Source: Flavobacterium sp. CG_23.5
Lineage (GTDB): Bacteria > Bacteroidota > Bacteroidia > Flavobacteriales > Flavobacteriaceae
Assembly (NCBI RefSeq): GCF_017875765.1
Contig: NZ_JAGGNA010000001.1
Span: 2,197,001 to 2,261,000, forward strand
Length of the DNA stretch: 64,000 bases
Direction: 5' to 3'
Translations under genes and position numbers: made by a program
Part shown: positions 2,789 to 48,730 of the stretch, in pieces
Numbering within the stretch: the stretch's first letter is position 1
Layout of the letters: each line of letters starts with the position of its first letter
The notes under the pieces: generated by a model
Databases searched by the model: none
The model's input: only the letters and a program-made list of their open reading frames with translations
What the model was told of the DNA's origin: nothing

Positions 2789-3231
2789 TGCGGATTTATT
2801 GCTAATTTTGGATCAATACTAAACGATTTATAATTAGAAGGTGAATCATAAATGCTGAAATTAATCAGGTAAATATCTTCTAAACCAGCTAACCTATTAT
2901 CGTTTTTAACGTTGGCATTTACATTACCTGACCTCCCAGCTGAACCTTGAATGGTTTTGGCAGTAAAGAAATTGGTATCGCCGTCTTCTGAGTCAAAGAC
3001 AATGCTGGTGATTGCTATGGTATATCCGTTATCACCTGTAACACCAACCCATTTCACATTGTTATTTATAAATACGATGGAGGTGAAATCTGGTAAAGTT
3101 CCGTTGGGAGAATTACCGTTGTTGTCATCAGATAAGACACATATTTCATTAATCTGTGCTTTTGTTGGATTAGTTAATCCAAAAAGATAATTTGCTTGAA
3201 CACTTAATGTGATTGTTACTGGCTTTGCCAT
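2785..3231 (-). CDS. Hypothetical protein coupled to the adenylate cyclase
   Basis: 148-residue protein with alternating beta-type segments, many Asn/Asp/Gly residues and no clear signal peptide or membrane helix. It ends in a IDPKLAINPQ-like tail, faintly reminiscent of the AidA/PixA inclusion-body family, but I do not consider that assignment secure. It lies directly upstream of the adenylate cyclase and overlaps it by four bases (ATGA), so the two are almost certainly one operon and the proteins may act in one process. Start chosen at the ATG giving MAKPVTITL; the upstream 270 bp are non-coding. Function unknown. Confidence 0.65.
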   Translation of the reverse strand: MAKPVTITLSVQANYLFGLTNPTKAQINEICVLSDDNNGNSPNGTLPDFTSIVFINNNVKWVGVTGDNGYTIAITSIVFDSEDGDTNFFTAKTIQGSAGRSGNVNANVKNDNRLAGLEDIYLINFSIYDSPSNYKSFSIDPKLAINPQ

Positions 3232-3507
3232 AATTACTATATTTAAAGGTTAATAAATACATATTTATATAGACCATTAATTAAATTCGGCGGGGCAAGC
3301 CAGTAAGATTTGGAGTAATTCGATCTAAAAACGAATATCAAATTTAATGTTTTTTTTCTAATAATTTAATATTGTTTTTCTCAAATTACTGTTTTTTAAG
3401 CGATTATTATTAAAATTGTATGTGGAATCACTATTTTCCTTCATCATCTAAAAAGAAACATTTCGTCTAAAAAAAATCTAATTCTCAATATAAATGGATT
3501 GGTCCTT

Positions 3508-16728: not shown

Positions 16729-17703
16729 ATGGCAAAAATACTTACCGGCGTTCAAAGTACAGGAACACCACATTTAGGAAACTTACTTGGCGCAATCATT
16801 CCCGCAATAGCTTTATCAAATAATCCCAAAAATGAATCGTTTCTTTTCATTGCCGATTTGCACTCGATCACGCAAATAAAAAACGGCGAAACATTAAGAA
16901 CAAATACCTACAGCACCGCTGCTGCTTGGCTTGCCTGTGGTTTAGATGTAAATAAAGTGGTTTTTTACAGACAATCGGATGTGCCTCAAACGGCGGAATT
17001 ATCCTGGTATTTGAGTTGTTTTTTCCCTTTTCAACGTTTGACATTGGCACATTCATTCAAGGATAAAGCGGATAGACTGGAAGATGTTAATGCCGGTTTG
17101 TTTTCGTATCCAATGCTAATGGCTGCCGATATTTTATTATACGATGCAAATTTTGTTCCCGTGGGGAAAGACCAGTTGCAACACCTTGAAATCACTCGCG
17201 ATGTAGCATCTCGTTTCAACCACCAAATGGGAGAAACTTTTGTAATTCCCGAAGCGATAATACAAAAAGACGGCATGCTTATTCCCGGTACCAATGGAGG
17301 AAAAATGAGTAAATCAGCAAATAATATCATCAATATTTTCCTTGATGATAAGTCCTTACGCAAACAAGTGATGAGCATCGAAACCGACAGCACGCCACTG
17401 GAAGATCCTAAAAATCCGGAAACGTGTAATGCATTTGCGATTTATAAATTATTAGCCAATGAAGAACAAATAGCCAGAATGACTGCCAATTACCTTGGTG
17501 GATATTACGGTTACGGTCACGCCAAACAAGCTTTGTTTGAATTAATCACGGAGACCTTCAAAACCGAAAGAGAGAAATACAATTACTACATGAATAACCT
17601 TCCTGAGGTCGATGCTTTACTAAAAATTGGTGCTGGGAAAGCTTCGGCTGTAGCTAATGGCGTTTTAGCAAGAGTGAGAGATAAATTAGGATTTGAGGTG
17701 TAA
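16729..17703 (+). CDS. trpS: Tryptophanyl-tRNA synthetase
   Basis: 324-residue class I aminoacyl-tRNA synthetase charging tRNA-Trp. The HIGH-type motif is seen as GTPHLGNLLG close to the N-terminus and the KMSKS loop as GGKMSKSANN near residue 195. Between them are SLHS/DLHSIT and MLMAADILLYDA, characteristic of TrpRS. The open frame extends 90 bp upstream, but those codons come from the 9-mer repeat region, so the ATG giving MAKILTGVQS is preferred. Length is normal for bacterial TrpRS. Confidence 0.97.
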   Translation: MAKILTGVQSTGTPHLGNLLGAIIPAIALSNNPKNESFLFIADLHSITQIKNGETLRTNTYSTAAAWLACGLDVNKVVFYRQSDVPQTAELSWYLSCFFPFQRLTLAHSFKDKADRLEDVNAGLFSYPMLMAADILLYDANFVPVGKDQLQHLEITRDVASRFNHQMGETFVIPEAIIQKDGMLIPGTNGGKMSKSANNIINIFLDDKSLRKQVMSIETDSTPLEDPKNPETCNAFAIYKLLANEEQIARMTANYLGGYYGYGHAKQALFELITETFKTEREKYNYYMNNLPEVDALLKIGAGKASAVANGVLARVRDKLGFEV

Positions 17704-17845: not shown

Positions 17846-17949
17846 AAAATATCACTAAAAGTGGGTATTTCTTATAAGATTTACAATCCATATTTTTGGT
17901 AAAGACTATTTAAAAAAATAGCACTAACTTTAAATCATAAAACTATGAA

Positions 17950-17984
17950 ACAAAGCACAAAGCACAAAGCACAAAGCACAAAGC
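17950..17984 (+). repeat. Five 7-bp tandem repeats (ACAAAGC) in the start region of a lipoprotein gene
   Basis: Five perfect copies of ACAAAGC follow an ATG at 17945. With five copies the frame opened by this ATG stops at a TAG after 15 codons. With one copy fewer it would run on as MKQSTKHKAQSYISK, then FILFVLAITFSNC, straight into the large frame that continues to 19514. A unit that is not a multiple of three, placed between a start codon and a signal peptide, is the classic structure of a slipped-strand phase switch. In this sequence the switch is OFF. Confidence 0.85.
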
Positions 17985-18143
17985 TACATTAGCAAATTTA
18001 TTCTTTTTGTTTTAGCAATAACGTTTAGCAATTGCCAAGTAGAGGAAGAACTCCTTGAAAATAAAGAGCAACACAATGCTATTGATAAAGACAAAATTTC
18101 GCTTGTTCAATTCAAAAACGAAACAAAGCTCAATCCCAAGCAA

Positions 18144-19514
18144 ATGCAATCCAATACAGCAGCTAAAAAAAACAATACAGCTAAAGAAACCATGCGCTTT
18201 TCTGATTTTATAATTGATACGCTGGCAATAAAAAAACACGTTAGTGAAACTAATAAAACGACTTATACTTTTCGTATTTACCCATTGACAACAGTAGCGC
18301 AACCAAATGAAATATATAATCTTGTATATCATAAAGTCAACAATTCATGGGAAACCTCCATTTTTTACTTAAAGAAATTCCCGAAAAGTGATACTAAACA
18401 AAAAATATTTGAAAAAATAGAACGGATATATGAAGGAACCGTCGCTAATTCTTTGACATCAAAAACTACTAGTTTAGAAATGTGTACTTTTGAAACTACT
18501 AGTTATCACTGTACAAATAGCGGAGAGTGCAGTAGAACTGGCATCTGTGATTTATGTTATTTATGCACAAGCACAACCATAACTTATGAATCTTGTGCCA
18601 GCGGAGGAGGTAGTGGCGGCGGAGGGTCGTCTGACCCAGGCAATACTTCTGATGGCGGAGGCACAGCGGATCCTTATGCTTACGCACCTAATTTTTATGA
18701 CAATCCTGTATATGACGACCCAAACTATATTAATGCAGTAAAGAGGTCGTATGTTTGGACTAATTTAGGAGATGCAGCACAAGGTTTTTTTGCCAGTAAT
18801 CAAGATAATATGAATGCTTTTAATCAAATTATTCAATATCAAATCGATGAAAATTGGTCGGACGAAAGTTGTGTTTTTGCACAAGAAATGTTTAATTATT
18901 TATCTGGAAATAGTTTTAACGGGATTATTGTTCCTGCAATTAATCAATTTGTTAAAGAAATGATTAATTCAATGGTAAATAATTATGGCTATTCTTCTGA
19001 CGGATTTATGGGGGACACTGATTACGATAACATTGATTATTCTGGCCCTAAACAGTTGATTCCAAAGAGTATTATTCTGAACGATGGTTCTACACTAATA
19101 ATAAGCTTTGGAACCACTCAAAGCGACAATAAAAATTCAAACAATGAGGTTGCTGTAGATTTAGTTAATAGTATAAAATTTGCAATAAATTTAGCAAATA
19201 GCAACCTAGAAAATTCTAATAAAATAACCTCAATATATATTGCTGCCACAACAAATGGCACTCATTCCTCTACAAGTAATCATACAAGAGGCACTGCGGT
19301 TGACATAAGTAGAATAAATGGCACAAAAATGATTAATTTAGGTAATAATATTCAAGTTAAAGCCCTGCAAGATGCTTTTGATAACTATCCGTCAATCAGA
19401 GAGAATTTCGGACCTTCTTTTAAACACAAGACATTTCCTAACGGATCTGTAAATCTGAATTGGCCTATTGGCGGTCACCAAGACCACATTCATGTATCAG
19501 TTCAAAGTTATTAA
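18144..19514 (+). CDS. Putative phase-variable lipoprotein with C-terminal M15-type zinc peptidase motif
   Basis: The first in-frame ATG (18144) gives 456 residues, but the frame is open back to 17949 and encodes a lipoprotein signal just downstream of a 7-bp repeat: hydrophobic FILFVLAITF then SNC as lipobox. This start is probably therefore an artefact of the OFF state. The protein has a Cys-rich region (about 8 Cys near residues 112-152), a Gly-rich linker (GGGSGGGGSS), a middle domain of unknown type, and a C-terminal domain with SNHTRGTAVDI and HQDHIHVS. These fit the SxHxxGxAxD and HxH zinc ligands of M15/VanY-like peptidases, which cut peptidoglycan cross-links. With the small exported gene 16 bp downstream, it looks like a secreted cell-wall toxin with an immunity protein; a housekeeping peptidase is the alternative. 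Confidence 0.7.
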   Translation: MQSNTAAKKNNTAKETMRFSDFIIDTLAIKKHVSETNKTTYTFRIYPLTTVAQPNEIYNLVYHKVNNSWETSIFYLKKFPKSDTKQKIFEKIERIYEGTVANSLTSKTTSLEMCTFETTSYHCTNSGECSRTGICDLCYLCTSTTITYESCASGGGSGGGGSSDPGNTSDGGGTADPYAYAPNFYDNPVYDDPNYINAVKRSYVWTNLGDAAQGFFASNQDNMNAFNQIIQYQIDENWSDESCVFAQEMFNYLSGNSFNGIIVPAINQFVKEMINSMVNNYGYSSDGFMGDTDYDNIDYSGPKQLIPKSIILNDGSTLIISFGTTQSDNKNSNNEVAVDLVNSIKFAINLANSNLENSNKITSIYIAATTNGTHSSTSNHTRGTAVDISRINGTKMINLGNNIQVKALQDAFDNYPSIRENFGPSFKHKTFPNGSVNLNWPIGGHQDHIHVSVQSY

Positions 19515-19530
19515 TCCTTAAAATACAATT

Positions 19531-19932
19531 ATGAAAAATATTATTTTACTATTATCTATAATGACAGTTTTAAGTTGTAAATCTCAAAACTTTGAAGCTA
19601 AAGAAGTAAACAATTTAGAATTAAATAATTTAATTGGAAATATAAGTTATTTTAAATCTTACGCTTTAACTGATAATTTAATCAATATCGTTATCACAAA
19701 AAACGAGGTAGGAAGCGCAAAAAATGAAGAATCAGGTGAAGTTTCCAATAATTTGTATTTATCTAAATGCGAATTTGGAGAACTGCCAATTTGCAAATTA
19801 TATTTATTGGAGAATTTTATCAATATAAATATTGTAAAAGTATATGAGGATAAAAAAAACATTAAAATTGATATTACATCTGGAAATTTTAATCAGCGTA
19901 AATCATATACAATTTTAATCTCACTAAATTAA
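19531..19932 (+). CDS. Small lipoprotein, putative immunity protein
   Basis: 133 residues with a lipoprotein signal (MKNIILLLSIMTVLSCKSQ; lipobox VLSC). The mature part is rich in Asn/Ile/Lys with no recognised domain. It starts 16 bp after the M15-motif protein, on the same strand, and is followed by a strong terminator, so the two form a closed two-gene unit. A periplasmic lipoprotein beside a predicted peptidoglycan peptidase is what an immunity protein would look like. That role is inferred only from context and export signal. Base composition is lower in GC than the housekeeping genes around it. Confidence 0.6.
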   Translation: MKNIILLLSIMTVLSCKSQNFEAKEVNNLELNNLIGNISYFKSYALTDNLINIVITKNEVGSAKNEESGEVSNNLYLSKCEFGELPICKLYLLENFININIVKVYEDKKNIKIDITSGNFNQRKSYTILISLN

Positions 19933-20129: not shown

Positions 20130-20288
20130 AAACAAGCGAAAATTACAATATTAGGTTATATAAATGTTGGTATTAAATTGAGAGTACTAGAATTTGGTAT
20201 AAAACAAAGGAAATTAATTGAATTATTAGTGAATAAAGTAACTGGCAAAATTTGCTGTGTCTCAGTAAAAAATATTAAAAATAAATAA
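20130..20288 (+). pseudogene. Orphan coding fragment (about 52 codons)
   Basis: An open stretch bounded by in-frame stops at both ends reads LGYINVGIKLRVLEFGIKQR and later NKVTGKICCVSVKNIKNK. It has no start codon of its own. It is preceded by an overlapping short fragment at 20101-20154 ending FYDKNKRKLQY. I take these as remains of a displaced C-terminal exon-like cassette of a larger protein. Function unknown. Confidence 0.4.
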
Positions 20289-20381: not shown

Positions 20382-20894
20382 ATGAAAAAGTTAATGTTTT
20401 CTCTGATTTTTCTATCAAATTTAATTTCTTATTCCCAAGAAATAAGAAATACAGATAGATTCTTTTTTAATAGTCAAAAATATAATTATTTACATTTTAG
20501 TTGGGGTCAGAGTAGCTACAGCAAACCATTTAAAATAATTGTCTGTTCTTCTAAAGATTTAAAAACTATAGAAACTAATTTAAGAATATGCCAAAAATTT
20601 AAATTAGAATATACAGATTATTATATTTTATCTCTAACAGATATCTCTACAAGCCACCAATGTATTAAGATAATTAAAGCTTTTCTGAATACAGTAGATA
20701 AAAAGCGAATAGGTGCAAATCTCTCAAGAGTAATAGTGAGAAAAAAAATGGAAGATAAAACTAATTCAAATCAGAAAATTGAATATTTTGTGGACGTTTC
20801 TAAAACTGCTTGCCTAAATGATGTTGAAGATTTATATATAAATGTTGAGCCTAAATCATTATGTAATGCTATTAGAGGTTTGACCCATTTCTAA
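20382..20894 (+). CDS. Small exported protein, putative immunity protein
   Basis: 170 residues with a signal peptide (MKKLMFSLIFLSNLISYSQ). A TTG 21 bp upstream is open, but the ATG gives the proper signal. The mature part has four Cys, no known domain and no membrane helix, so it should be periplasmic or secreted. Its ATG lies 6 bp after the stop of an orphan C-terminal coding fragment. Together with its neighbours it fits an orphan toxin-immunity module in which only a tail of the toxin remains. Function is not known. Confidence 0.55.
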   Translation: MKKLMFSLIFLSNLISYSQEIRNTDRFFFNSQKYNYLHFSWGQSSYSKPFKIIVCSSKDLKTIETNLRICQKFKLEYTDYYILSLTDISTSHQCIKIIKAFLNTVDKKRIGANLSRVIVRKKMEDKTNSNQKIEYFVDVSKTACLNDVEDLYINVEPKSLCNAIRGLTHF

Positions 20895-21126: not shown

Positions 21127-21726
21127 ATGAAAAAAAATATTTATATAGTTAGTTTGTTGCTTATTATTTATGGCTGTTCTTCTGCAAATAAGGAAATTGC
21201 TCCTATAAATGCATATTTAAAAGAGGCCATAAAAACTAACGATACCATCGTCATTATTACAAACAAAATTAATAATAATTACACATTGAATTTGTGGAAG
21301 GATAGAGTAAATATTGATGTAAATCATAATAATTTAGAAAATAGTCTTGATGAAAATCCAAGAATTTATGAAGAGAAATATTGGAATGAAATGAATGAAA
21401 AATACCGAAATCATAATACTGATTCTTTGTGGTTGGGAAACTCACTATGGAAACAAAAAGATTTTAAAAATTTAAAAGTTAAAATGATGACCGAAAAGGT
21501 TTTTCCAAAACCCTATATATATAATGAATATATGGGTAAAATCCCAGAACGATCTGCTTTTTCATTCTCAGAGCCAATGATCTACAAAAAAATATATGCT
21601 GTTTTTGCAATTTCAGAAACAACAACAGGGCGACAATTTATAAATCCGAGGTCATTTGTAATTATGAAAAAGAAAAAAGGCGAATGGATATTCGTTAAAG
21701 AAATAACTGACGGGGCTTACTATTAA
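21127..21726 (+). CDS. Lipoprotein, putative immunity protein (paralogue 1)
   Basis: 199 residues with a lipoprotein signal (lipobox IYGCSS). It is clearly paralogous to the next gene: shared blocks are the NxYL/F segment near residue 30, xWKxxDF in the middle, FSFSEPMxY near residue 150, and VIMKKxKGxWI near the C-terminus. No catalytic motif is seen and the domain is unknown to me. It follows an orphan C-terminal coding fragment by 6 bp. The family's tandem duplication and export signal suit immunity proteins that protect against related periplasmic toxins, but this is inference. Confidence 0.55.
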   Translation: MKKNIYIVSLLLIIYGCSSANKEIAPINAYLKEAIKTNDTIVIITNKINNNYTLNLWKDRVNIDVNHNNLENSLDENPRIYEEKYWNEMNEKYRNHNTDSLWLGNSLWKQKDFKNLKVKMMTEKVFPKPYIYNEYMGKIPERSAFSFSEPMIYKKIYAVFAISETTTGRQFINPRSFVIMKKKKGEWIFVKEITDGAYY

Positions 21727-21783: not shown

Positions 21784-22401
21784 ATGAAAAACATAATAAT
21801 ATACTTATCGCTATGCATCGCCTCTACTAATTATTCGCAAACTAAAAGTACTTTAAAAAAAGATGAAAAAGAAAAGCTTGAAGCCATCAATGATTATTTT
21901 ATAACAATTGTAAAAGATAGTAATAGAGTAGTATTCATTGCCCAAGAAAAACTCAATTCTAATTTAACATTAGAAATTTTTAAACAAAATTTCATTCAAG
22001 CTATTGATTTAAAAGGAAATATAGAACCGGACACACATTTATTTAACGAAAAAGACTGGAAAAAATTTAAAAAACAAAATCAGGATCCACCTATCCAAGA
22101 TAATAGAATTTGGGATACCCATAAATATTGGGGCAAAAATGATTTTAGCCACAGTCAACTTATTTTTGAAAGTATGAACACAAAAACAGGGATAGAATTA
22201 ATAATTGAGAAGTACGATAAATCAGATGTTTGTATATATAGTTTTTCTGAACCTATGTATTATCTAAACAAAAAACATCTAATTTTCACAAATTTAAAAA
22301 TTTGCATATCAGGCGGAAGTAAATTTGTTGTTATTATGAAAAAAATAAAAGGCAAATGGATCCGAACCCATGAAGCTTTCAATCCAAATGAGACATATTA
22401 G
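21784..22401 (+). CDS. Exported protein, putative immunity protein (paralogue 2)
   Basis: 205 residues with a signal peptide ending near TNYSQ. Unlike its upstream paralogue it has no lipobox Cys, so it is probably soluble in the periplasm. Shared blocks with paralogue 1 include FNEKDW, YWGKNDF, YSFSEPMYY and FVVIMKKIKGKW. Spacing of 57 bp to the previous gene suggests a common transcript. No toxin remnant lies between the two, so it probably arose by gene duplication. Role unknown. Confidence 0.55.
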   Translation: MKNIIIYLSLCIASTNYSQTKSTLKKDEKEKLEAINDYFITIVKDSNRVVFIAQEKLNSNLTLEIFKQNFIQAIDLKGNIEPDTHLFNEKDWKKFKKQNQDPPIQDNRIWDTHKYWGKNDFSHSQLIFESMNTKTGIELIIEKYDKSDVCIYSFSEPMYYLNKKHLIFTNLKICISGGSKFVVIMKKIKGKWIRTHEAFNPNETY

Positions 22402-25118: not shown

Positions 25119-25436
25119 CTAATCTGGTGCTCGTTTGCAACGAGTACCTACTTTTTTTTTAGCACTAAACAAAGCGTTTGAAACGCGGCTCATTTACCAC
25201 AATGGTTCAACATTTACATTATAAAAAATAGTATTGTCTTCTTCATAATTGCTATAACTGCTATTTACATAATCGCGCTAATCTGGTGCTCGTTTGCAAC
25301 GAGTACCTACTTTCTTTTTAGCACTAAACAAAGCGTTTGCAACGCGGCTCATTTACCACGATGGTTCAACATTTACATTACAAAAAATAGTATTGTCCTT
25401 TTCATAATTTCTATAACTACAATTTACATAATCGCG
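25119..25436 (+). repeat. 159-bp tandem duplication in a palindromic intergenic element
   Basis: 25119-25277 and 25278-25436 are two highly similar copies in direct tandem. They lie inside a larger inverted-repeat element: the left arm at 25124-25153 (CTGGTGCTCGTTTGCAACGA plus AGTACCTACTT) is matched on the other strand by 25468-25497. An inner inverted pair around GCGTTGCAAACGCT is also present. There is no coding frame of note in 24850-25570. It resembles a non-autonomous element with REP-type hairpins. Confidence 0.7.
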
Positions 25437-45901: not shown

Positions 45902-45972
45902 GGCGTCGTGGCCGAGTGGCTAGGCTGGGCTCTGCAAAAGCTCCTACTCCGGTTCGAATCCGGACGATGCCT
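45902..45972 (+). tRNA. tRNA-Cys (GCA)
   Basis: Folds as a full cloverleaf: acceptor GGCGTCG/CGATGCC with one G-U pair, D-arm with GAGTGGCTA loop, anticodon loop CTGCAAA (anticodon GCA), T-arm TCCGG-TTCGAAT-CCGGA. Discriminator base is U, an identity element for Cys. CCA is not encoded. A terminator follows directly. Confidence 0.95.
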
Positions 45973-45976
45973 CTAA

Positions 45977-46006
45977 AAGAGATACAGAAATGTATCTCTT
46001 TTTTTT
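45977..46006 (+). terminator. Rho-independent terminator of tRNA-Cys
   Basis: AAGAGATACA pairs with TGTATCTCTT around a 4-base loop, then eight T. The same sequence is repeated at about 46385-46420 inside the repeat array, showing the array grew by copying this segment. Confidence 0.85.
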
Positions 46007-46531
46007 GTTTCAATTTTTAGGAAAAATTAAATAAAGTTATGGTTTGAATCTGTCCCGAAGCTTCGGGAGATGCCTCTAAAACCTTCAAAGCAATTTGGAG
46101 GTTTTTTTATATCTAATTTTTAGAAAAAATTAATTAAAGATATAGTTCGAATCAGTCCCGAAGCTTCGGGAGATGCCTCTAAAACCTTCAAAGCAATTTG
46201 GAGGTTTTTTTATATCTAATTTTTAGAAAAAATTAATTAAAGATATAGTTCGAATCAGTCCCGAAGCTTCGGGAGATGCCTCTAAAACCTTCAAAGAAAT
46301 TTGGAGGTTTTTTTATGTCTAATTTTTAGGAAAAATTAAATAACGTTATGGTTTGAATCTGTCCCGAAGCTTCGGGAGATGCCTCTAAAAGAGATACAGA
46401 AATGTATCTCTTTTTTTTTGTTTCAATTTTTAGGAAAAATTAAATAAAGTTATGGTTTGAATCTGTCCCGAAGCTTAGGGAGATGCCTCTAAAACCTTCA
46501 AAGCAATTTGGAGGTTTTTTTATGTCTAATT
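46007..46531 (+). repeat. tRNA-derived about 103-bp tandem array, part A (units 1-5)
   Basis: Five tandem units with period 103-104 bp. Each has a T-arm-like GTTTGAATCTG or GTTCGAATCAG, the palindrome TCCCGAAGCTTCGGGA (first bases at 46053, 46156, 46259, 46362 and 46466, the last with one change), GATGCCTCTAAAA as in the end of tRNA-Cys, and a terminator hairpin. Units 1-3 carry a hairpin of type CCTTCAAAGCAATTTGGAGG; unit 4 carries the tRNA-Cys terminator. The IS starts 50 bp after unit 5's palindrome. Confidence 0.85.
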
Positions 46532-46571
46532 TGTCCCGTCCTGAAATAGCGATACACAAAAAAGTATCCTA

Positions 46572-47006
46572 ATGGAAAAGCTAGAAGTAACTCGCTATTT
46601 AAAGCGAACTCAAAAAGACTATTCAATGTCTTTTAAATTACAAATTGTTCAAGAAATTGAGCAAGGACAACTTACTGCTACAGAAGCTACAAAGAAATAT
46701 GAGATTCAATGTAGAAAAACTGTCGTTAATTGGCTTAGAAAATTTGGTAACTTTGATTGGGAAAATCAAATGCCTTTTAATATGCCCAAATCACCCGAAC
46801 AGAAGATAATGGAACTTGAGTCTCAAGTTAAATTATTAGAGAAACAGAAAGCGCTTCTTGAGCGACACGCTTTTGTCGCTGACAAGAAAGCTATCATTTT
46901 TGATATGATGATTGATATTGCAGAAAAAGAATATCAAATTGACATACGAAAAAACTCATCACCCGAACAATCGATCATTTTAAAGAACAACAAAAACAAA
47001 CAGTAA
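46572..47006 (+). CDS. IS3-family transposase OrfA
   Basis: 144-residue helix-turn-helix protein of the insertion sequence. The N-terminal half (QEIEQGQLTATEATKKYEIQ, with TVVNWLRKFG) is the typical recognition HTH of IS3-family OrfA. The C-terminal half is a leucine-zipper-like coiled coil (LESQVKLLEKQKALLERHAF). It overlaps orfB by one base (TAATG), so orfB is made by reinitiation or by frameshifting into an OrfAB fusion. Confidence 0.88.
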   Translation: MEKLEVTRYLKRTQKDYSMSFKLQIVQEIEQGQLTATEATKKYEIQCRKTVVNWLRKFGNFDWENQMPFNMPKSPEQKIMELESQVKLLEKQKALLERHAFVADKKAIIFDMMIDIAEKEYQIDIRKNSSPEQSIILKNNKNKQ

Positions 47007-47872
47007 TGTTTGCCTGTACTTTGTTTGGGGTAGATAGACAGGTTTATTATCGAAAAATAAAAAGAAGAATAGCTAGACAATCTAACGCTTCAAAAGTGGT
47101 TTCTATGGTTTTAGAAATCAGACAAACTATGCCTAGAATTGGAGCAAAAAAGTTGTATTTTCTTTTGAATAATGAATTAAAACAATTAAAAATAGGCAGG
47201 GATAAATTTATCAACATCCTTAGAGCCAATCATTTATTAATTACGCCTAAACGCTCCTATCATATAACAACGAACTCGCATCATCGATTCAGGAAACATC
47301 AAAACCAAATTCTAGAATTGCAAATACAGCGGCCCGAACAAGTCTGGGTATCGGACATCACCTATATTGGCAAAAGAGAAAGTCCTCGCTATTTAAGTTT
47401 GGTAACCGATGCGTATTCTAAGAAAATAATGGGCTACAATGTAGCTGATAATATGAATACAGAAAGCACTTTGGCTGCTTTGGAAAATGCAGTAAAGTAT
47501 AGAAAAAACAAGGATTTACCATTAATACATCATTCTGATAGGGGATTACAATATTGTGCTAACGAATATCAAAAACTACTCAATAAAAGCAAAATAAAAT
47601 GTAGCATGACGCAAAATTCAGATCCTTATGAAAATGCTGTGGCAGAAAGAATAAATGGTATTTTAAAGCAAGAATTTAATATTGATAAATACAGCCAGAG
47701 CTTGCCTGTAATGAAACAAATAATAAAAGAAGTTGTTGAAATCTACAACAATAAAAGACCCCATTATTCTAATTTTATGCTTACACCTAACCAAATGCAT
47801 GTGCAGAATCAAATTAAAATGAGAACCTATAAAACAAAAAACAGCAGTAAACTTTTGCTTACTACTGTTTAA
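47006..47872 (+). CDS. IS3-family transposase OrfB (DDE integrase)
   Basis: 288-residue catalytic subunit. The three acidic residues of the retroviral-type integrase fold are present: D in VWVSDITYIGK, D in HHSDRGLQYC, and E in ENAVAERINGILKQ. An N-terminal HTH_21-like region (RIGAKKLYFLLNNELKQL) precedes them. No stop or frameshift interrupts the gene. It ends 53 bp before the right terminal repeat. Confidence 0.93.
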   Translation: MFACTLFGVDRQVYYRKIKRRIARQSNASKVVSMVLEIRQTMPRIGAKKLYFLLNNELKQLKIGRDKFINILRANHLLITPKRSYHITTNSHHRFRKHQNQILELQIQRPEQVWVSDITYIGKRESPRYLSLVTDAYSKKIMGYNVADNMNTESTLAALENAVKYRKNKDLPLIHHSDRGLQYCANEYQKLLNKSKIKCSMTQNSDPYENAVAERINGILKQEFNIDKYSQSLPVMKQIIKEVVEIYNNKRPHYSNFMLTPNQMHVQNQIKMRTYKTKNSSKLLLTTV

Positions 47873-47925
47873 TAATTTGTATATTTATTTTTATTAATCC
47901 TGTATCGTTTTTTTAGGACTAGACA

Positions 47926-48663
47926 ATTTTTAGAAAAAATTAATTAAAGATATAGTTCGAATCCGTCCCGAAGCTTCGGGAGATGCCTCTAAAACCTTCA
48001 AAGCAATTTGGAGGTTTTTTTATGTCTAATTTTTAGAAAAAATTAAGTAAAGATATAGTTCGAATCCGTCCCGAAGCTTCGGGAGATGCCTCTAAAACCT
48101 TCAAAGCAATTTGGAGGTTTTTTTATGTCTAATTTTTAGAAAAAATTAAGTAAAGATATAGTTCGAATCCGTCCCGAAGCTTCGGGAGATGCCTCTAAAA
48201 CCTTCAAAGCAATTTGGAGGTTTTTTTATGTCTAATTTTTAGAAAAAATTAATTAAAGATATAGTTCGAATCCGTCCCGAAGCTTCGGGAGATGCCTCTA
48301 AAACCTTCAAAGCAATTTGGAGGCTTTTTTATGTCTAATTTTTAGAAAAAATTAAGTAAAGATATAGTTCGAATCCGTCCCGAAGCTTCGGGAGATGCCT
48401 CTAAAACCTTCAAAGCAATTTGGAGGTTTTTTTATGTCTAATTTTTAAGAAAAATTAAGTAAAGATAACGTTCAAATCCGTCCCGAAGCTTCGGGAGATG
48501 CCTCTAAAACCTTCAAAGCAATTTGGAGGTTTTTTTATGTCTAATTTTTAAGAAAAATTAAGTAAAGATAACGTTCGAATCCGTCCCGAAGCTTCGGGAG
48601 ATGCTTCTAAAACCTTCAAAGAAATTTGGAGGTTTTTTTATGTCTAATTTTTAGAAAAATTAA
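47926..48663 (+). repeat. tRNA-derived 103-bp tandem array, part B (units 6-12)
   Basis: Seven more units with a 103-bp period (palindrome starts at 47966, 48069, 48172, 48275, 48378, 48481 and 48584). Each unit contains GTTCGAATCCG, the 16-bp palindrome, GATGCCTCTAAAA, a terminator hairpin (AAAACCTTCAAA / TTTGGAGGTTTT) and an AT-rich spacer. No spacer differs between copies, so this is not CRISPR. The sequence is more uniform here than in part A, suggesting recent expansion. Confidence 0.85.
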
Positions 48664-48730
48664 GTAATACCAAAATACATATGAATTTACTGGAATGGAT
48701 GTGATATAATTAGCAAATATTAATCAAGTC

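Follow-up and report, generated by a model that had tools for sequence, protein, structure and literature searches.

Repeat slippage is known above all as a switch for the surface structures of host-adapted pathogens. In Flavobacterium, a genus whose members are mostly free-living, it seems to control weapons: in a stretch of 64,000 nucleotides from Flavobacterium sp. CG_23.5 (contig NZ_JAGGNA010000001.1, positions 2,197,001 to 2,261,000; referred to as the window), an array of seven-base units stands between the start codon and the body of a predicted lipoprotein toxin gene. A comparable repeat is described for neuO of E. coli K1, a phage-borne capsule acetyltransferase gene that harbors the heptanucleotide AAGACTC at the 5' end of its coding sequence and is out of frame in 42 of 64 genomes (excerpts of PMC13001214). 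The window gene shares with neuO the seven-base unit in the 5' coding region, the setting of the frame by the unit count and a share of about two thirds out of frame, but differs from it in that its product is a putative lipoprotein toxin accompanied by immunity-like genes and in that its relatives use several unit sizes.

At the protein level, SitA of myxobacteria is likewise a lipoprotein toxin with a conserved N-terminal and a variable C-terminal part and an adjacent immunity gene. A feature of SitA is its travel by outer membrane exchange through TraA (excerpts of PMC5562445), and the predicted lipid anchor of the window protein recalls SitA as to delivery; the term phase variation is absent from the main text of the SitA paper. 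The type VI secretion system marker TssD gave no match in the window's genome, but also none in 14 control genomes. The lipobox effectors APD1 and APD2 of Amoebophilus, also from Bacteroidetes, likewise combine a conserved N-terminal with a polymorphic C-terminal part. According to the excerpted text of PMC3482391 they are aimed at the eukaryotic host, whereas the window family has immunity-like neighbours, which point to bacterial targets. The TANFOR proteins are polymorphic toxins of Bacteroidetes, Flavobacterium included (excerpts of PMC7073777), but carry another N-terminal domain; the window protein has no NCBIfam match at E <= 0.05 in a library whose content for TIGR02542 was unchecked, and the word lipoprotein is absent from the main text of the TANFOR paper. 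Among the papers listed in searches of the open-licence literature, judged by title and start of abstract, none deals with slippage-controlled polymorphic toxins in Bacteroidetes, and the excerpts of PMC4287609 and PMC3848433 hold nothing on slippage of toxin genes themselves. Each of the three components, a slippage switch, a polymorphic toxin and a lipoprotein toxin, is known by itself; a combination of them throughout a Bacteroidetes toxin family, with repeats of several unit sizes at one place, was not found in the literature searched.

As the original prediction had it, an ATG (17945-17947) is followed by five ACAAAGC units with 100% matches between them, which form a slippage-prone array at 17950-17984; this and all other features of the locus described below lie on the + strand. 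The frame opened by the ATG (17945-17992) closes after 15 codons with a TAG at 17990-17992. The gene body is a 521-codon open frame (17949-19514) that begins immediately behind an in-frame TGA (17946-17948), ends with a TAA (19512-19514) and shows FILFVLAITFSNC in its translation. A frame check confirmed that it contains no ATG, GTG or TTG upstream of 18144. The proposed arithmetic, by which loss of one unit joins the ATG to the lipoprotein signal behind the repeat, is right on the frame reading; the figure of 456 further residues after the signal was mistaken, as this length applies to the frame from the ATG at 18144 onward. With 35 bases the array is the longest perfect one in the window for units of 1 to 12 bases (the runner-up has 24), and about 1e-11 chance runs of its length are expected at lag 7 in 64 kb of the window's base composition. 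Across the single contig of the 3.67-Mb genome, two or more ACAAAGC units in a row are present at one place besides the window array.

The unit count differs between relatives. Comparison of copy number in sister genomes had been suggested as a check, and two nearly identical loci provide it: over 1927 aligned columns, locus L083 and F. frigoris DSM 15719 (L082) differ by one mismatch and one 7-base gap, which is exactly one unit (4 versus 5 units). The L083 contig stems from a metagenome bin labelled Paludibacter; this label is probably wrong, since the contig is only one base and one unit away from F. frigoris over 1.9 kb. An intact relative, which had also been sought, is present in F. fryxellicola, where the gene at the same locus is in frame with 4 imperfect units, encodes 593 amino acids and begins at an ATG aligned to that at 17945. 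A second pair differs in the number of AAAC units, as the G371 locus harbors (AAAC)4 in frame and the G278 locus (AAAC)11 out of frame; the two proteins are 98.3% identical over 415 amino acids after the repeat and then continue into unrelated C-terminal domains. Altogether, repeats with units of 1, 2, 4 or 7 bases occupy the same place, from start codon to lipobox, in the relatives, and 13 of the 17 loci with a repeat are out of frame (the probability of at least 13 at an expectation of two thirds is 0.28). The four in frame are those of G113, whose frame closes after 47 codons, of G371, and of F. fryxellicola and G376, whose arrays are below the survey thresholds. The G612 frame has a further break downstream of the repeat.

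The locus is marked by trpS (16729-17703), its conserved upstream neighbour. A trpS with 90-94% identity is located just upstream of a matching 5' region in seven other genomes (G278, G309/F. frigoris with its near-twin L083, G045, G256, G117, G113 and G209/L081), of which G278 was taken as F. fryxellicola, its 593-residue protein agreeing with the named entry P0018. The gene next to trpS is heptamer-bearing and out of frame in F. frigoris/G309, G209 and G256 and bears poly-C in G113, and in G045 and G117 (L090, L018/L091) trpS is followed only by remains of toxin parts and of the switchable 5' end. A repeat-less family member also follows trpS in G233, where trpS shows 79% identity over the 184 residues present. 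In an alignment of seven 5' regions, conservation covers the upstream element described below, the start and a large part of what follows the array, and the array itself varies in length. The loci of the named relatives came from a DNA pattern search (3 loci), and a protein scan of the contigs of the named genomes found no relative of the full protein. The called starts of the relatives P0001 and P0012 lie within the lipobox, which would fit a true start that is out of frame; gene callers may truncate such toxins.

The predicted lipoprotein signal was found behind the repeat as the hydrophobic stretch KFILFVLAITFSNC (17994-18035), which includes the lipobox cysteine codon at 18033-18035. This assignment was read by eye; the cysteine is nearly invariant (at least 90%) in the family alignment A1. 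It is followed by a conserved N-terminal region (18036-18947) that is common to proteins with differing C-terminal domains and contains no named domain in Pfam and NCBIfam profile scans. The C-terminal MepA/M15-like peptidase domain (19023-19511) harbors SxHxxGxAxD at 19275-19304 and HxH at 19485-19493, which we take to be the zinc-ligand motif of M15/LAS peptidases; identity to the M15/LAS murein endopeptidase MepA (PDB 1tzp) is 15%, with no profile match above cut-off. The C-terminal domains of relatives are of the Tae4, metallopeptidase (Tox-MPTase3), AHH nuclease and M15-like types. A Pfam scan of 10 repeat-bearing members placed Tae4 above cut-off in G036, G016 and G230 and Tox-MPTase3 in G371; two further members gave sub-threshold matches to SprT-like and C39 domains, and four gave nothing. 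On this domain arrangement the window gene is predicted to encode a polymorphic-toxin lipoprotein of Flavobacterium, a more exact naming than lipoprotein alone.

The association of repeats with this family was analyzed in the genus. A profile of the N-terminal family matched in 82 of 398 genomes (114 rows), and the 86 rows beginning at model position 20 or lower formed the survey set, 28 internal or C-terminal pieces being left out. The loci of F. frigoris, L083, G209, G256, G113 and G376, which came from DNA searches and share the 5' region and not the N-terminal profile, stand outside the 86. With poly-A/T uncounted, eight of the 86 members have a repeat close to their start (four of AAAC, two heptamers, and one each of AC and poly-G), and in none of them is the unit size divisible by three. 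Control starts of open reading frames (ORFs) carry a repeat in 2 of 215 cases, of which one is an ATT unit and one is the ATG frame of a family member itself, and lipoprotein-like control starts in 0 of 28. Fisher's test gave 2.5e-4 (8/86 versus 1/214) and 3.6e-5 (versus 0/214 for non-triplet repeats), and a background density of 9 non-triplet arrays in 308 kb predicts 0.49 in 86 start windows (Poisson P 5e-8); all of these P values overstate the case, since the repeat thresholds were set with the first cases already known and the members share ancestry. The variety of unit types suggests that the repeat arose independently four or five times. At the level of the order, 31 of 395 genomes matched, and two further AAAC cases were present among the 19 of 41 rows that were checked. 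The pattern (ACAAASC)3 was found in 10 of the 398 genus genomes, compared with 4 for the reversed pattern; the arrays of G264, G228, G375, G046, G443 and G274 show no family signal or lipobox in the printed frames and look intergenic or upstream of other genes.

The one-unit difference, the intact in-frame relative and the repeats of other unit sizes in homologues support the original view of a phase-variable switch that is now OFF, and we consider it likely that this is a contingency locus switching an antibacterial toxin on and off by slippage. Slippage of the DNA polymerase in replication would lengthen or shorten the array in steps of 7 bases and so shift the frame, 7 being indivisible by three. 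In the ON state the ATG would be joined to the lipoprotein signal and the toxin; in the OFF state, presumably the present one, an early stop would leave a peptide of 15 residues. Slippage would be frequent and reversible, and the ON protein may be a membrane-anchored toxin that cuts the peptidoglycan of rivals. The immunity-like gene has its own start codon and would not need to switch, so that OFF cells may stay immune without paying for the toxin. The upstream element, which goes with the repeats in the family and also precedes other genes, may add a second control layer. If this is true, the repeat would account genetically for differing toxin output among the cells of an immune clone, and counting its units would offer a direct test for division of labour in bacterial warfare.

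Several observations weigh against this assignment. Unit-count changes were seen between relatives; the window's genome contains one family member and is represented by one assembly. Both F. frigoris-type counts are out of frame, so this pair displays a changed count and no ON form. The in-frame cases have short or imperfect arrays, except for the poly-C array of G113, and the 12 other perfect arrays passing the survey thresholds as well as that of G256 are all out of frame. ACAAACC arrays lie outside the family in 6 of the 10 pattern-positive genomes, and the idea that they are family-specific was rejected for this reason; the special feature is the position right after the ATG. The toxin domain of the window has no match above cut-off in Pfam or NCBIfam and no meaningful PDB relative by sequence, and 6 of the 10 scanned repeat-bearing members lack a Pfam domain above cut-off. 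Since the profile cut-off was not reached, the C-terminal domain is designated as putatively M15/MepA-like and not as a member of a filed family.

The gene could instead be a fixed pseudogene whose frame was lost in a single event, with the array persisting as a neutral relic. The closed present frame, the out-of-frame state of the longer arrays and the remnants of such genes at the trpS site in G045 and G117 would agree with this, but 521 codons are still open with an intact peptidase motif, non-triplet repeats are concentrated at one place in the family, and the out-of-frame share fits random phase. The ratio of non-synonymous to synonymous changes (dN/dS) between the orthologues G278b and G506, both out of frame, is 0.288 over 586 codons, and for the toxin domains of the window and F. 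fryxellicola it is 0.096 over 184 codons; both values are averages over history and compatible with a very recent loss in one strain. A permanently silent gene is expected to drift towards a dN/dS of 1. Thus, purifying selection between two out-of-frame orthologues makes a fixed dead gene, which the original prediction had kept as an alternative, unlikely. It is similarly improbable that the switched lipoprotein is not antibacterial and represents, for example, a surface protein whose variation serves to evade phage or grazers. The conserved N-terminal part without a named domain would leave room for such a role, but the C-terminal swaps among Tae4, Tox-MPTase3, AHH and M15-like domains are opposed to it, and so are the downstream small genes, which track the C-terminal type where compared (two M15-type loci and the metallopeptidase type).

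We regard it as very unlikely that the protein is made in the present state, either from the in-frame ATT at 17988 or by programmed ribosomal frameshifting in the repeat. Non-AUG starts exist, and the ATT lies just ahead of the hydrophobic stretch; however, the in-frame relatives start at an ATG ahead of the repeat, and no single fixed frameshift would serve all loci, as the frame offset is 1 in the window, L083, G256, G105, G016, G278c, G230 and G612 and 2 in F. frigoris, G036, G209, G278b and G506. A sequencing or assembly error in the unit count, conceivable for a single assembly, is scarcely credible, as a 35-base array is shorter than common sequencing reads, out-of-frame arrays also occur in related loci of other assemblies and the extra stretch in the F. 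frigoris-type pair is exactly one unit.

Switching of the toxin gene by slippage may extend beyond this locus, and we give about even credence to a family-wide contingency system in environmental Flavobacterium. Poly-G, poly-C, AC, AAAC and ACAAASC repeats would have arisen repeatedly at the one site that separates start codon and lipobox and would be linked to an upstream element common to the loci, with the immunity gene keeping its own start. A clonal colony would then contain a small toxin-producing fraction in a fully immune population, and the killing domain would be swapped by recombination behind the conserved switchable 5' end. The synonymous distances between the window and F. fryxellicola are 0.56 for the toxin domain and 0.26 for the immunity-like gene, compared with 0.94 for trpS. 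These values below that of trpS suggest that the toxin/immunity cassette was exchanged between species.

The upstream element CACTAAAAGTGGGTATTT is located at 17853-17870 as an exact match. With up to 2 mismatches, CACTAAAAGTGGGTATT[GT] occurs at 10 places in the window's genome, including 17853-17870, compared with 1 for the backward control, and the copies precede varied ORFs at a distance of about 70-310 bp. The first part of the element, CACTAAAAGTG, forms a small inverted repeat. The element is found upstream of 6 of the 8 repeat-bearing family members versus 2 of the 78 others (Fisher 1.6e-6) and may be a regulator site. A role as dedicated toxin signal was rejected, as it stands at 10 genomic places before varied genes. 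A literature search for its letters returned no paper that by title was about such an element.

The toxin stop is followed after 16 bases by a gene with its own ATG (19531-19932) that encodes a likely cognate immunity lipoprotein of 133 amino acids, which would protect the producer. Homologues lie directly 3' of M15-type toxins in F. fryxellicola (L024, 86%) and G363 (L023, 45%), and a search of the protein collection listed 24 proteins, one of them marked as the window's own. Further downstream, 20136-20285 holds a 50-codon remnant from the C terminus of a different toxin (82% identity to the G105 toxin end), and 20382-20894 encodes a small protein with a signal-like N terminus that has no homologue among the fetched loci or in the stretch after the G105 toxin. 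Two orphan immunity-like genes follow, at 21127-21726 (a lipoprotein gene with homologues in L018/L091, L163, L174 and L048) and at 21784-22401; their products are distant paralogues with 25% identity. In the F. frigoris-type locus L083, the gene immediately 3' of the metallopeptidase-type toxin is a homologue of the latter (34%). Judged by gene order, the neighbourhood would show the usual arrangement, in which a single toxin and its immunity gene are accompanied by orphan cassettes and orphan immunity genes. Elsewhere, three tandem, similar immunity-like genes follow the toxin gene in G376 (L183:1159-4550), and L083 harbors a partial metallopeptidase toxin C-terminal cassette (3204-3308) 3' of the immunity-like gene.

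Repeats of other kinds are present in the remainder of the window. In the region 45902-48667, a tRNA-Cys is followed by arrays of a 103-bp repeat at 45999-46532 and 47925-48667, whose units contain a stretch resembling a tRNA 3' end. A two-ORF element between these arrays (46572-47872) looks IS3-like, judged from reading its proteins. At 25119-25436, a 159-bp unit is present in two tandem copies with 94% matches.
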